Source: a virus | Length of the DNA: 64,000 nt | Virus record (IMG/VR): IMGVR_UViG_3300020056_002227 | Coordinates: 62,001 to 126,000 of that record | Reading direction: 5' to 3' (one strand) | Shown here: in pieces, positions 9,281-16,978 of the stretch | Layout: the number at the start of each line of letters is the position of its first letter | How positions within the stretch are numbered: the first letter of the stretch is position 1 | Program-made: the position numbers and the translations under genes | The notes under the pieces: model-generated | Databases searched by the model: none | The model's input: only the letters and a program-made list of their open reading frames with translations | What the model was told of the DNA's origin: nothing

Positions 9281-9739
9281 ATGACTGGTTTAAATATTAA
9301 CCACCTCACCCCGTTCACTGTAGGTTTTGATAGAATGCTTGATCGACTCGAAACGATGTCTGATCACATGAATCGAAATAATACAGGATTCCCGCCCTAC
9401 AACATCCGTAAACAGGAAGATCATTTCTATATCGACTTGGCACTTGCTGGGCTCGATAAAGATGATGTTGAAATCGAAGTAGCAGATGGAAATCTCACCA
9501 TTCGTTCCACTTGGGACGAGCAAGGTGACTACTTCAATGCTGGTGGAGATATGCTCCACCGCGGTATCTCTTTCCGAAAGTTCACCCGTAATTTCTCTAT
9601 TGCGGAAGACATTCAGGTAGTAGATGCCGAATTTGTGAATGGTCTTTTAACGATTCATCTGGAACGCATTGTACCAGAAGAGAAAAAGCCCAAGAAAATT
9701 GAAATTGGTTTAGGTGAAAGGAAACTGTTAACCGAATAG
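9281..9739 (+). CDS. hsp20: Small heat shock protein Hsp20
   Basis: A 152-residue alpha-crystallin-domain chaperone. After an N-terminal arm with a typical start (NHLTPFTVGFDRMLDRLE), the crystallin domain covers about residues 45-140: FYIDLALAGLDKDDVEIEV, RGISFRKFTRNF and the GLLTIHLER strand, with basic KKPKKIEI after it. Such genes are common in T4-like marine phages and are thought to protect phage or host proteins during infection; IbpA is the bacterial relative. The AGGAG ribosome site is 6 bases before ATG and may be masked by an upstream CTCTT (see findings). The next gene is a peroxiredoxin, another stress gene. Confidence 0.93.
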   Translation: MTGLNINHLTPFTVGFDRMLDRLETMSDHMNRNNTGFPPYNIRKQEDHFYIDLALAGLDKDDVEIEVADGNLTIRSTWDEQGDYFNAGGDMLHRGISFRKFTRNFSIAEDIQVVDAEFVNGLLTIHLERIVPEEKKPKKIEIGLGERKLLTE

Positions 9740-9769
9740 TCTTCACCCCCTTTAATATGGAGATTAATT

Positions 9770-10324
9770 ATGAATAGAAATGGTAGACGCATCCCAGATG
9801 TGACCTTTCAAACACGTGTACGAGACGATTCTATCGATGGGCCAAATCCCTATCGATGGGAAGCCGTAACCACTGGTGACCTCTTTGATGGAAAGCGAGT
9901 GGTCGTATTTTCTTTGCCCGGTGCATTTACACCGACGTGTTCCACCTATCAGGTGCCAGGTTATGAAGAAAACTATAACCTGATTCGTGATCTAGGTGTT
10001 GACGAGGTATATTGTGCTTCTGTTAATGATTCATTTGTGATGAACAAGTGGGCAAAAGATCAATGTGTCGAAAAGGTAAAAATGATCCCAGATGGTACGG
10101 GATGCTTTACTCGACAAATGGGTATGCTTGTCGATAAGTCTAATCTTGGTTTTGGTTTGAGATCGTGGCGTTATGCTATGGTTGTGACTGATGGAAGAAT
10201 TGAGGCTTTCTTTGAAGAGCCAGGACTGAGAGATAATGCTTCTGATGATCCCTATGGAGAAACTGCTCCACAGATGATTATTGATTATTTGAGATCTGCA
10301 TCATCTCTACAACAGGCAAGCTAA
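9770..10324 (+). CDS. Peroxiredoxin (AhpC/TSA, Prx5-like)
   Basis: A 184-residue thiol peroxidase. The active-site motif PxxxTxxC is present as PGAFTPTC (residues 50-57; peroxidatic Cys57). SVNDSFVMNKWAKDQ and the LRSWRYAMVVTDGRIEAFF segment are typical of the Prx5/hybrid peroxiredoxin group, where an Arg near the latter completes the site. It would reduce hydrogen peroxide or organic peroxides with glutathione/glutaredoxin or thioredoxin. In a phage it is an auxiliary metabolic gene. It ends 5 bases before a strong terminator and follows hsp20, so the two may form a stress unit. Confidence 0.9.
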   Translation: MNRNGRRIPDVTFQTRVRDDSIDGPNPYRWEAVTTGDLFDGKRVVVFSLPGAFTPTCSTYQVPGYEENYNLIRDLGVDEVYCASVNDSFVMNKWAKDQCVEKVKMIPDGTGCFTRQMGMLVDKSNLGFGLRSWRYAMVVTDGRIEAFFEEPGLRDNASDDPYGETAPQMIIDYLRSASSLQQAS

Positions 10325-10352: not shown

Positions 10353-12209
10353 TTATCCAGCAGGACTACCTAATGATCTCATAGGACCACCACTAAATAC
10401 TGTACTTACCTCTGTTTTAACATTATCACCTTGTTTGACAACGTGTGTGGTGACTGGTGCATTTGTGGTATTCTGATTAATAATAACAGGACCTTGCATA
10501 TTCGGTGCATTTTCTTCTACAGTACCCAAAACCCTTCCATTGGCATCAATAACACCTAGGTCTCTCATCATCTGGTCATTTAATGCTTTTGCCTCTTCTG
10601 CGGTGAGAGGATTCTCTAGACGTTCAAGGTATGATTGAATTCGCTCTTCATCAGCTCCTGCCAGTACTGCTGTTGCAATTGTCTGATCTTGTTGAGCCTG
10701 TAACCTTTGCAGTTCTGCTACTCTTTCTTTATCAAATTCTGCTTTGGCTCTTGCATATGCTTCGTCAGATTCACCTACATTTCGGCCTTTGCGTGCCCTT
10801 TGAGCTCTAAATTCTTTTTCTGCCAATTCATCAATTTTTTCTTGTATCTCTCTTGCAGATCTTTGTGCTGCAGCAGTAGCTTCCTCTCTGATTGCAGCAT
10901 TCTCAGCCTCTACAATATCTCTTTGGGCTTGAATTGCAGCATTACCGAGACCTATATTCTCTAATTGTTGTTCTGTCAAACTCTTAGAAAGTGCCTCTCG
11001 TTCTTCTAACATTTGCTCTAATTTTGATTCTGCATCTGTCTTGAGGTCTTCAATATTCTCAAGCGAATCTTCCATCACATTTGTAATGGCACCTTCATCA
11101 TATGCATCATCTCTTATTACGTCTGCAATTTTTTCACCGATACCGAGAGCCGCACCTACGGCTGCACCTACCACAGCACCCTTTGGTCCAAACATTAAAC
11201 CAATAGATGCGTATTTTAATACAGTACCACCAAAATCTACTGCATCGTATTTTCTGTTTTTAATCTCATTGGGAGTCATACCCATTACATTTTCGCGAAT
11301 GGCATCACCCATTGCAGGCATCAGAGTATCTAATGCCAACGTTGCCAGACCAGCAACACTAAGACTTCTGAGGTTCGGCATTCTCATGCCTTTTCCTATA
11401 TCCTTACCTCCGAGGCCTCCGCGACGACCGTCGGGATCCACATCTGGAGGAGCGGCACCACCTCTTCTTCTTAGCGCTTCAATTACACCGTAAGAAACTA
11501 AACCATCACGAATCATCTCGGTTACAGGGCCAGCAGCCAATGCGGCCGCACCAATTCCAAGACCTGCCACGGCAGCCGTTCCTGCTGTTGCAGCAAGTTT
11601 CTCTAAATTTTCAGGTGATAATGCTGCTTCCATTTGAGTTAAAATTAATGGAGTCTTCTCTGCTATCAGATTTAAAGATGTGGAAATCTTGTCCCATGCT
11701 GTTGTTGCAATGGAATCGACCATTCGATCTAATCCACCCTCAGTTCTGGAATTGAGATACCCATAACCTATTGTGGCTGCTCCAATACCAAAGGCACCAG
11801 CGGCAAGGAATTTCATATTCTGAAGACCCTTCAATTGCTCGAATAGCCCCTTTCCTTTGCCCTTATCTTTCTCTGCGGCAAGATCATTCTTTAATTTTTC
11901 TGTCTCAACTTTTTCACGCAAGGCCTTTAATTCTGCGGATTCTTGGTTTGCTTCAAGATCATCAAAAGCCCTATCTCGTGCAGCCTGCTCCCTTTCTCTC
12001 TCTGCAATATCTGCTTGAGCACCCATAGATGCTCTCATCGTATCAGTTTGTGCCGCAATATTATTTGAAATGGTATTAAAAATACCTTCAAATTTAGCCA
12101 ATTCGACCTTCACAGAGCGAATTGAATTAGAGCCTGTATTACGTAACAGCCTGCCTTCTGCTTGGAGCTTATCTATGATGGCCTGTGTTTCGGCCGAGAG
12201 TTCAGCCAT
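10353..12209 (-). CDS. Tail tape-measure-like protein (gp29 position)
   Basis: A 618-residue protein. It has an Ala/Glu-rich coiled-coil start (residues about 60-130), three hydrophobic Gly/Ala-rich stretches (about 133-155, 205-230 and 335-360, e.g. GPKGAVVGAAVGAALGIGE), a long coiled coil at about 385-500 (EEREALSKSLTEQQLENI onwards) and a flexible C-terminus. This resembles a tape measure, and its length is close to T4 gp29 (590 residues). It lies directly downstream of the gp26/gp51 chaperone frames, the position tape measures hold after G/GT genes in many tailed phages. No lytic domain is seen. Confidence 0.68.
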   Translation of the reverse strand: MAELSAETQAIIDKLQAEGRLLRNTGSNSIRSVKVELAKFEGIFNTISNNIAAQTDTMRASMGAQADIAEREREQAARDRAFDDLEANQESAELKALREKVETEKLKNDLAAEKDKGKGKGLFEQLKGLQNMKFLAAGAFGIGAATIGYGYLNSRTEGGLDRMVDSIATTAWDKISTSLNLIAEKTPLILTQMEAALSPENLEKLAATAGTAAVAGLGIGAAALAAGPVTEMIRDGLVSYGVIEALRRRGGAAPPDVDPDGRRGGLGGKDIGKGMRMPNLRSLSVAGLATLALDTLMPAMGDAIRENVMGMTPNEIKNRKYDAVDFGGTVLKYASIGLMFGPKGAVVGAAVGAALGIGEKIADVIRDDAYDEGAITNVMEDSLENIEDLKTDAESKLEQMLEEREALSKSLTEQQLENIGLGNAAIQAQRDIVEAENAAIREEATAAAQRSAREIQEKIDELAEKEFRAQRARKGRNVGESDEAYARAKAEFDKERVAELQRLQAQQDQTIATAVLAGADEERIQSYLERLENPLTAEEAKALNDQMMRDLGVIDANGRVLGTVEENAPNMQGPVIINQNTTNAPVTTHVVKQGDNVKTEVSTVFSGGPMRSLGSPAG

Positions 12210-12480
12210 TTACTTCGTTCTCCATGAAACAGTTACTGGGCTTGGGGTAATTGTCACTTAAAAGCATGTTTTCTGCCCACTCGAGTTCTTGAATAAGTCT
12301 GTTATACCAATGAGCATCATAGGCACTATTATTAGGGTTATCTCGCTCGATCTTCAGCATCGAAATGCGCATCTTAACGTATTCTTTTTTGGCCAGTGCC
12401 TTCTTCATTCTACGTTCTTCTCGCTGGAGCAGGCCTAATTTACCTACTGTTGCACATTCAAATTTTTGTTCTACCTTCAT
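12202..12480 (-). CDS. Small protein between gp51 frame and tape measure
   Basis: A 92-residue basic helical protein (LQREERRMKKALAKKEYVK) ending in an acidic tail. The ATG at 12480 overlaps the TGA of the gp51 frame as ATGA, and its stop overlaps the tape-measure start by 8 bases, so all three are coupled. AAAAGGA precedes the ATG. I do not recognise a family; the place suggests a tail/hub assembly factor (T4 gp28 would be a candidate by position only). Confidence 0.65.
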   Translation of the reverse strand: MKVEQKFECATVGKLGLLQREERRMKKALAKKEYVKMRISMLKIERDNPNNSAYDAHWYNRLIQELEWAENMLLSDNYPKPSNCFMENEVNG

Positions 12481-12650
12481 TGGTTCTTTTCCTTTTGTTT
12501 TTCGATGTAGTTAATCAACATCTGGAAATATAAATCCCTTTCGTATGGCAACATGCCTTCAATATCTGATATCGAATATTTATGATGCTGTGCCAAAGAA
12601 AATATCATTTGATAATATTCACCGAGACTAACATGACACAGCGTCAGGAA
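12477..12650 (-). CDS. 51: gp51-like tail/hub assembly domain read by -1 frameshift from gp26
   Basis: On the minus strand an open frame with no good start runs from the gp26 slip site to TGA at 12479-12477. It encodes 57 residues including LGEYYQMIFSLAQHHKYS, ISDIEGMLPYERDLYFQ and MLINYIEKQKEKN, a compact helical domain like the T part of tail assembly chaperones and like short gp51 proteins of marine T4-like phages. Slippage on T TTT TTT (12656-12650) would join it to gp26, giving 289 residues. Its TGA overlaps the next ATG as ATGA, strong evidence that this frame is translated. An alternative is internal initiation at ATG 12608, without a clear ribosome site. Confidence 0.75.
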   Translation of the reverse strand, partial: FLTLCHVSLGEYYQMIFSLAQHHKYSISDIEGMLPYERDLYFQMLINYIEKQKEKNQ

Positions 12651-13345
12651 AAAAAACTGCGCATGCCCTCGACTACAAATGTTTTCTCTTTACCTTCCTT
12701 ATTCTTATATTTCATTTCGTGACGCAATTTAGGCATCGTTTCAAAAAATGCTTGAACACCTTTAATTACATCACCTGGCATATCTTCCATGAAAGCATCG
12801 ATCTCTTCTTGCGAGTATTCACTAAAATCGTGTATCTCATCTTCAGAGGCAATTCTATCCAAACATGCGACCATGATATAGTAATTAACTAGCGGATCTT
12901 TAGGATCCAGTTTAATAATCTGACCAAACTCATCGATGGTAGGATATCTTAAAAACAAAACGTAATCTTCGTTTACCCTAACCTCATTCGTGTGAGATTT
13001 ATCCCTCGTGACCTTTACCTTAGTAATATCAAGGTCTAACTGTACGGTTTCTTCTGTGTCTGGATCTTTAATAGTAAACGACACATTATTATCCACGGAT
13101 CTTGCACGTAACTGTAACAGTACATATTCAAGATCAAACATTGCAAGGGTAGAGATATCAATGTCTACCAAACAATTATTTACAATCTGCCTTGCAGCAA
13201 GTAGCTCTTGTTCTGCATCTCCAGATTCTTGTGCCACTAACAGAATTTTTTCTTCTTTAACTGTAAATGGTCTGTATTTTATTTTTCTACCTGTAGACGG
13301 CAACTCCATCTCAGATATTGGCAAATCAATTTTTGGTAAACTCAT
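12644..13345 (-). CDS. 26: Baseplate hub / tail assembly protein gp26
   Basis: A 233-residue protein similar in pattern to T4 gp26 (208): IDLPISEMELPSTGRKI, YRPFTVKEEKILLVAQES, a middle beta part, then DFSEYSQEEIDAFMEDMP and FFETMPKLRHEMKYKN. These features also resemble G-type tail chaperones of other phages. GGGAG lies 10 bases before the ATG. The final codons read through eight T residues, and the zero-frame stop comes one codon later. The gene is followed in the -1 frame by a gp51-like domain. Confidence 0.82.
   Translation of the reverse strand: MSLPKIDLPISEMELPSTGRKIKYRPFTVKEEKILLVAQESGDAEQELLAARQIVNNCLVDIDISTLAMFDLEYVLLQLRARSVDNNVSFTIKDPDTEETVQLDLDITKVKVTRDKSHTNEVRVNEDYVLFLRYPTIDEFGQIIKLDPKDPLVNYYIMVACLDRIASEDEIHDFSEYSQEEIDAFMEDMPGDVIKGVQAFFETMPKLRHEMKYKNKEGKEKTFVVEGMRSFFS
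12649..12656 (-). promoter_or_regulatory. Probable -1 ribosomal frameshift site (T8) in gp26
   Basis: Minus-strand reading is AGT TTT TTT TCC TGA, so the heptamer T TTT TTT is in the correct X XXY YYZ phase. An SD-like GAGGG lies 9 bases upstream (12670-12666), the arrangement that stimulates -1 shifting in dnaX. A small TGAC/GTCA hairpin follows but is weak. A shift extends gp26 by 57 residues. Confidence 0.75.
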
Positions 13346-13366: not shown

Positions 13367-14149
13367 TTAAATTCCTAATGTATTACTAATATTATCAAAC
13401 GAATTAGTTACTCTTGTCACTCTATTTACTGCATCTTGAATCGAGGTGGGTCTTCCAGCTCGAGTCGTTTGTCTCACAACATCTGCAAACCCGGCAACGG
13501 CACCAAGAATATCCAAGAGTCCAGTACCTCGATTCAGGCGAGATGTGGGTGATCCAGTCTTTTCACCAGAATATTCCAATCTCTTATAATTGAACGATAC
13601 TGGTAATGTCAGATAGCTGTCGTTATTCTCCCATGCCAGATCGATATCACCAACAATGGTGGGATAACACTTATCTAATATAACCTCATAATACTTGTCT
13701 GCGAAACTTTCTGTGCTGTAATGCCTAACGGTCATTCGACAAGCATATTCATCCCGGTAGCCTATTTCAAAAGGTAGTTTCTCATCTATCTGAGCAAACG
13801 GCCCACCCTTTGTTCCGTAATTCATAACGCTTTGAGCCCACTGGTGAAAGAAAGAAATAACCTGATGATCTGAATCACACATAAAAATTGTTTCCAATGG
13901 CCTCGCGGAGATTCCGGTTGGTAACAATGATGGCAATTGTCCTACCTGAGCATTTTCTGTCGTATTAAAAATGATGCCCGGCATGTTAACCGACTTACAG
14001 AAAAATGTAAATTCTCTGGTTCCAAATACTTTATTTTCAGCAAGAGTGCTATCCTTATAAGGAGTCATCGTAACTTCAAATAAAGATGATCGAGCCGGAC
14101 CTCCGAATCGATTCATTGTTGATTTGAATTGAGTTATATCGAATGGCAT
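13367..14149 (-). CDS. 54: Baseplate tail tube initiator gp54
   Basis: A 260-residue protein with the tail-tube-like fold signature: FEVTMTPY near the start, FFCKSVNMPGIIFNT, RPLETIFMCDSDHQVISFF, and DLAWENNDSYLTLPVSFNY followed by KRLEY. This pattern and context (beside gp26/gp51, with gp48 across the divergent promoters) fit gp54, which nucleates tube polymerisation on the baseplate; T4 gp54 is 320 residues. The last 50 residues are low complexity and helical. A gp19-type tube protein is less likely because the length is greater and gp48 is nearby. Confidence 0.72.
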   Translation of the reverse strand: MPFDITQFKSTMNRFGGPARSSLFEVTMTPYKDSTLAENKVFGTREFTFFCKSVNMPGIIFNTTENAQVGQLPSLLPTGISARPLETIFMCDSDHQVISFFHQWAQSVMNYGTKGGPFAQIDEKLPFEIGYRDEYACRMTVRHYSTESFADKYYEVILDKCYPTIVGDIDLAWENNDSYLTLPVSFNYKRLEYSGEKTGSPTSRLNRGTGLLDILGAVAGFADVVRQTTRAGRPTSIQDAVNRVTRVTNSFDNISNTLGI

Positions 14150-16337: not shown

Positions 16338-16715
16338 ATGACAAAATATTTTGAGCCCTTTCCGACAATAGAATATCAAGGTAGATTGGTAAAAGATATT
16401 ACTCGCAGAAATAATTTCATGCGCAGTATTACGAACAACCCATATCTATTTTTACCCTACACTGTTTCCGAAGGCGAGAGACCAGAAGATGTCGCACAAT
16501 TTTATTATGGGTCAGTCGATTATGTTTGGTTAATTTATCTTGCAAATAATATCATTGATCCCTATCACGCATGGCCTATGGATGAATTTACATTCAATAA
16601 CTACATAATTAACAAGTATCAAGAACAGTCTGGCCTTGAAGGTGATGATGTGGTTGCTTGGACACAGAGTGATACAGATGAAAATATTGTCTACTATGTA
16701 AGAGAGATTAACTAA
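16338..16715 (+). CDS. 53: Baseplate wedge gp53, N-terminal part
   Basis: A 125-residue protein matching the start of gp53: FEPFPTIEYQGRLVKDITRR, then a LysM-like segment PYTVSEGERPEDVAQFYYG, VDYVWLIYLANNIIDPYHAW and FNNYIINKY. T4 gp53 is 196 residues and clamps wedges together. The usual C-terminal part is encoded by the next gene, whose ATG overlaps this stop (TAATG at 16713-16717). So gp53 appears split into two chains in this phage. Confidence 0.85.
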   Translation: MTKYFEPFPTIEYQGRLVKDITRRNNFMRSITNNPYLFLPYTVSEGERPEDVAQFYYGSVDYVWLIYLANNIIDPYHAWPMDEFTFNNYIINKYQEQSGLEGDDVVAWTQSDTDENIVYYVREIN

Positions 16716-16978
16716 TGGCAGTCGACGAGATCATCCTAGCTCCAGAATCGTTTCAAACGATTTATCTCCGAAGGGAAGATAGAGTAATTCTACGAACGGA
16801 GCAAGGTAGAAAAATTATTATCAAAAGAATTGTACCGGAAGAATGGAAACCTTACCGCATCTACGATTATGAAAGGGATTTGAACGAAAACAAGAAAGAG
16901 ATTTTCTTATTCGATAAAAGATTCTTATCGCAACTATCAAAAGAGTATGTTGATGCCCTGCGTAATTCTAGCGAGTAA
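16715..16978 (+). CDS. gp53 C-terminal part, separate small protein
   Basis: An 87-residue protein. Its second half (YRIYDYERDLNENKKEIFL then DKRFLSQLSKEYVDAL) resembles the usual end of gp53 in marine T4-like phages. It begins on the last base of the gp53 stop, so it is produced by termination-reinitiation. The two halves probably bind each other in the wedge. Alternatively it is an independent small baseplate protein; the motif match favours the split. Confidence 0.6.
   Translation: MAVDEIILAPESFQTIYLRREDRVILRTEQGRKIIIKRIVPEEWKPYRIYDYERDLNENKKEIFLFDKRFLSQLSKEYVDALRNSSE

Follow-up and report, generated by a model that had tools for sequence, protein, structure and literature searches.

Within a 64,000-nucleotide stretch of DNA (the window), part of a 169,742-base IMG/VR virus record, a gp26-like gene on the minus strand is followed by a short gp51-like coding sequence in the -1 frame. 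This arrangement raises the question of whether two proteins are encoded separately at this locus or whether both sequences belong to a single recoded gene. The features of the locus are listed in Table 1.

Table 1. Features of the gp26-gp51 junction and its neighbors (window coordinates)
Feature	Position	Strand	Remarks
Tail-tube-like protein	13367-14149	-	Upstream of gp26; PHROG 45 tail tube, E = 3.9e-36
gp26-like gene, predicted TAC-N (short tail assembly chaperone)	12644-13345	-	233 aa
SD-like GAGGG, putative stimulator	12670-12666	-	9 nt upstream of heptamer
Slippery heptamer T TTT TTT	12656-12650	-	In gp26 phase
gp26 stop codon TGA	12644-12646	-	Predicted to be read by non-shifting ribosomes
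-1 frame extension, gp51-like C domain	12477-12650	-	57 codons + stop
Downstream stem, 5' arm GCTGTGTCA	12642-12634	-	7 nt after heptamer
Downstream stem, 3' arm TGGCACAGC	12595-12587	-	Pairs with 12642-12634
92-aa ORF	12202-12480	-	Start overlaps extension stop (ATGA)
618-aa ORF, candidate tail tape measure	10353-12209	-	Position and weak profile match

The 3' end of gp26 reads AGT TTT TTT TCC TGA, in which the heptamer follows the X XXY YYZ pattern of a -1 frameshift site in the phase of gp26. Its T8 is the sole homopolymer A or T run of at least eight in the 64 kb. The -1 frame is bounded upstream by a TAA at 12692, and within the window it holds no ATG, GTG, or TTG before an ATG at 12608, which lies inside the conserved part of the extension. 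At the other end the TGA of the extension (12477) and the ATG of the next ORF (12480) overlap as ATGA. The initial annotation had described this anatomy, which is more than a chance arrangement, and its account of the gp26 end and of the in-phase heptamer was exact; the GAGGG nine bases upstream, the 57-codon -1 frame lacking a usable start, and the stop-start overlap were likewise found as described.

Database searches related both parts of the junction to baseplate hub proteins. gp26 matched Pfam T4_baseplate (E = 1e-53) and PHROG 150 (E = 1.2e-58), and the extension matched PHROG 634, "baseplate hub assembly catalyst" (E = 5e-21). The profile built from the fused products covered residues 6-243 of the 249 in T4 gp51 (E = 2e-10), which also has a T4_baseplate domain (4e-52), whereas T4 gp26 aligned along almost all of its length with the N part of that profile alone (E = 1.3e-17). 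The fusion therefore corresponds to a long chaperone, TAC-NC, and the same alignments, together with the T4_baseplate domain of T4 gp51, indicate that in T4 each form, short and long, has a gene of its own. Indeed, T4 genes 26 and 51 differ from the window locus in being apart, on opposite strands, and devoid of a slip site. A 2022 study of these genes reportedly found that several T4-like groups share the frameshift whereas T4 relies on genes 26 and 51 as separate units, and our profile alignments agree with that account. Both T4 proteins appear as hub assembly chaperones in PMC3004832. The AlphaFold model of gp26 (pLDDT 86) matched T4-like gp26 proteins in BFVD, and the HK97 tail assembly chaperone (PDB 2ob9) was placed third in the PDB fold list at a non-significant level (E = 0.7, probability 0.51). 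A sequence search of solved structures gave no match for T4 gp51 and only chance-level matches for gp26.

Relatives were taken from viral contigs and named phages, and 133 distinct junctions were compared. The extension was in the -1 frame of gp26 in every one of the 80 intact junctions of a first set (the window and 79 contigs). The heptamer T TTT TTY stood at a constant spacing from the gp26 stop codon in 52 of 53 distinct window-clade junctions, the sole exception (L028/L030 type) being G TTT TTT, and at a fixed place in all 55 distinct cyanophage-type junctions; from codon usage the T TTT part would be expected at frequencies of only ~0.34 and ~0.48, respectively. It is also present in S-PM2, S-PRM1, P-HM1, S-RIM32, and S-SKS1; in Cr30, KVP40, DLP_6, HTVC008M, phiM12, Aeh1, and phage 65; and in Ps15, Ci1, IG49, SRB7757, and Melnitz. 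The initial annotation had named alignment of the slip site and -1 frame in related phages as a check, and related genomes with their own gp51 start and no slippery run as contrary evidence. The alignment gave the counts above, and with few exceptions the named T4-like phages beyond the T4 clade keep the heptamer. A near-identity DNA search among known phages gave no match, and contig scans with the gp26 of K444, KVP40, and Ps15 gave few or no loci.

The same comparison bears on two readings in which the ribosome does not change frame. The first is that the split frame reflects sequencing error or gene decay in what is truly one open frame. Homopolymer indels are common errors, and in one relative (L185) the frame is lost within the run; nevertheless, the -1 split recurs in 80 independent junctions and in finished isolate genomes. 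We give this reading practically no credence, and it is refuted by the comparison with relatives. The second is that RNA polymerase slips on the T8, so that some transcripts carry an extra T. The run is long for a sequence of 40% GC. However, although the T8 singled out by the initial annotation is present in the window, it is not conserved: in most relatives the run is T7 with an A after it, and in many it is just T6 before a C (TTTTTTCG). Because T TTT TTY is what the relatives conserve, we regard T8 as incidental and T TTT TTY as the unit. Six Ts are too short for efficient polymerase slippage, and yet the codon phase of the run is kept; moreover, the SD-like and stem signals described below are ribosomal. 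Transcriptional slippage is thus very improbable.

The extension behaves as coding sequence in the -1 frame. Over the 138 nt after the gp26 stop in 53 window-clade sequences, this frame contained no stop codon and had a median dN/dS of 0.17, whereas each of the other two frames had a stop in every sequence and dN/dS values of ~1.2 and ~2.1. Purifying selection thus acts on the extension in the -1 frame only. An alternative is that the gp51 C domain is made as a protein in its own right, either with a start codon of its own or by termination-reinitiation where gp26 stops. Public records annotate gp51 in this way, as a separate short gene, and an ATG overlaps the gp26 stop (TAATG/TGATG) in 21 of 53 (~40%) window-clade relatives; the Vibrio phages K444 and D506, without a heptamer, also have TAATG. 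However, the codon overlapping the gp26 stop varies freely (ATG, GTG, GCG, ACG, or AGC), and the absence of an ATG, GTG, or TTG before the core is shared by the window with 16 of 52 window-clade and 13 of 55 cyanophage-type junctions. The extension has no conserved start codon. In Melnitz a TAG closes the -1 frame just before the slip run, so that the extension there can be entered only by a shift or from an internal start after the run.

Signals in the RNA on both sides of the heptamer bear on the same alternative. Upstream, pairing with the anti-SD sequence peaked in all three groups at a motif ending ~7-10 nt before the heptamer, with energies of -6.3 to -6.7 kcal/mol against a background of ~0, and was stronger than after synonymous recoding (mean z -0.9 to -1.4). 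The SD-like GAGG lies ~9 nt upstream of the heptamer, a spacing that suits stimulation of frameshifting, as in E. coli dnaX. Relative to the downstream ATG position it lies ~19 nt away, which is too distant for initiation and argues against a gp51 made from its own start.

Downstream of the heptamer, folding in the 53 window-clade sequences was much stronger than in synonymous-codon versions (mean z -4.2; 96% below -2), whereas control windows along gp26 gave z values of -0.6 to +0.1, about -0.3, and the next window gave +0.5. The fold has a core of 9 bp. The consensus arms of the clade are GCTGNGYCA and TGGCNCAGC, the covarying partner lying ~40 nt further on; with only 51 nt of downstream sequence the signal in the window clade was weak because the partner arm lies beyond it. 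In the stem alignment 95% of cells pair, against 25-45% in slid registers, and both sides have changed in 15 cells. The stem exceeded all 500 shuffles on three measures, and no shuffle reached its covariation score. In the key column a base of a Cys/Ser codon (TGY or AGY) is matched to position three of an Ala/Val codon, as UA 18 times, AU 12 times, and UG 10 times. Folded alone together with the upstream part, the window sequence adopts a competing structure with an unremarkable z of -1.1, and the case for the stem therefore draws on the comparison across relatives and on a ribosome covering the upstream part. Rfam contains no family for this stem. An SD-like element upstream and a structure 5-10 nt downstream, the pair of elements looked for in a stimulator, are both present. 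A separate gp51 protein would leave the conserved heptamer and the stem unexplained, and as an alternative to a fusion it is very improbable. Where TAATG or TGATG occurs, reinitiation may add some unfused C domain.

In cyanophages the same place is occupied by short hairpins of several different designs (mean z -2.7). The heptamer may thus have stayed fixed while the stimulatory RNA was rewired, from the stem of the window clade to unrelated cyanophage hairpins and to an Ackermannviridae extension without a classical heptamer; we lean, if only slightly, toward this view. If it is right, the locus represents a set of naturally occurring frameshift signals, all selected steadily for a given ratio of TAC-N to TAC-NC.

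The initial annotation had proposed that gp26 and gp51 are joined by a probable -1 frameshift, and the conserved slip site, the dN/dS values, the RNA signals, and the homology to T4 gp51 all support this. Judged from sequence comparison, -1 ribosomal frameshifting is very probably the main route to the gp26-gp51 fusion, and genes 26 and "51" would be one recoded tail assembly chaperone gene. Most ribosomes would stop at the gp26 TGA and release the short chaperone. A minority, slowed by the upstream GAGGG and by the stable stem 7 nt downstream, would shift back by one base on T TTT TTT and then read the 57 codons of the -1 frame, giving a TAC-NC of 289 aa. If lambda gpG/gpGT is a guide, the tape-measure protein might be coated by numerous short and a few long copies, the C-terminal part recruiting tail-tube subunits before the chaperones leave. 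The occurrence of slippage in cells, its efficiency, and the binding of tape measure and tube are what we infer.

The resemblance to lambda gpG/gpGT lies in the pairing of a short chaperone with a -1 frameshifted long form and in a gene position beside a tail-tube-like gene and a tape-measure candidate. The two systems differ in slip site (GGGAAAG in lambda, T TTT TTY in the window) and have no detectable sequence homology; moreover, the window phage is contractile-tailed. Comparative evidence strongly favors a -1 frameshift that yields the fusion, which would be the functional counterpart of lambda gpG/gpGT. Another related system is the TAC gene of a myovirus, Pseudomonas phage Adele of the Vandenendeviridae (PMC12846349), with a conserved -1 frameshift at a poly-T motif, although this is a different family and its motif is GTTTTT.

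According to a 2016 review (PMC5009743), G-T frameshifting is a conserved trait of phages with long tails, "except T4". The TAC genes of T4-like phages have since been identified, according to the title of Vladimirov, Gautam and Davidson (2022, Virology 566:9-15; title via PMC10885494), and PMC12846349 cites that study when it attributes poly-T signals for -1 frameshifting to the TAC-N genes of T4-like phages. The G/GT logic of T4-like phages, which the initial annotation presented as new, had already been published. Because gp26 and gp51 were described in 2022 as the TACs of these phages, with poly-T sites in several groups, the window is a further, well-supported member of a known system, with which it has the genes and the junction type in common. 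The uncultured clade of the window and its covarying stem may lie outside what Vladimirov et al. covered, as far as the citing papers convey. Literature searches brought up no paper directly on a gp26/gp51 frameshift, that study being represented by the papers citing it, and neither the covarying stem nor its replacement from one lineage to the next was found there. Relative to the published trick, the addition here is a conserved RNA signal flanking the slip site.

The initial annotation had a tape-measure gene following the junction; a large ORF does lie downstream, but the 92-aa ORF intervenes, and identification of the 618-aa ORF as a tape measure is by inference. ORFs of 89-92 aa are found at the place of the 92-aa ORF in only six window-clade loci. 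Counterparts of the 618-aa ORF in 32 relatives have 548-677 aa. Profile comparison with T4 gp29 and other tape measures gave a single match, a weak one to the protein annotated as tape measure in Caulobacter phage Cr30 (E = 2e-6 over 45 columns); both Cr30 and HTVC008M have an annotated tape measure in the corresponding position. It is plausible from position and profile that the 618-aa ORF encodes the tape-measure protein. Genes for Hsp20 and peroxiredoxin (9281-10324, plus strand) directly adjoin the tail genes. On the same strand, gp53 (baseplate wedge; 16338-16978) is split into ORFs of 125 and 87 aa that lie in different frames, share one base, and match PHROG 232 positions 1-128 and 152-195, respectively.

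These results extend the logic of the frameshifted tail chaperone to uncultured T4-like phages that form one clade, and the locus offers many naturally varying -1 frameshift signals. Cyanophage gp51 was reported to be only ~20% as long as its T4 counterpart, and Aeh1 to lack gp51 (PMC3037559). The part that seemed absent lies in the -1 frame and has no usable start; in Aeh1 we located the C domain in that frame, where no start codon precedes the core. Production from separate genes in T4 and from one gene in the window phage and most relatives explains both the short cyanophage gp51 and the apparent lack of one in Aeh1. Public annotations of the gp26/gp51 pair are often wrong.

Several junctions depart from the common type. 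In four Ackermannviridae (L193-L196, of which L193 and L196 are Vi01 and Klebsiella 0507-KN2-1) a conserved -1 extension follows gp26, and ATT TTC ATT TAA replaces the classical heptamer. Vi01 and 0507-KN2-1 have no start codon before the core, which suggests slippage on a T TTC tetramer or some other mechanism; the C domain is unannotated in these two phages and in phiEa2809. The Vibrio phages K444 (L095, 3180-3240) and D506 (L192, 2190-2240) have lost the slip run, the ATG of the C domain overlapping the stop as TAATG; it is possible that reinitiation replaces frameshifting there. In the SP15-like Listeria phage LIS04 (L101, 4150-4430) a C-domain-like sequence, WTDTESMAVFERTELYSRLL, follows gp26 in the +1 (= -2) frame and adjoins AGTTTTTTAG, so that a -2 or +1 shift is possible. 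Finally, in L185, a near-identical relative of Stenotrophomonas phage Ps15, gp26 continues into frame +1, as though the T run were a base short, which is either an assembly error or a real variant.
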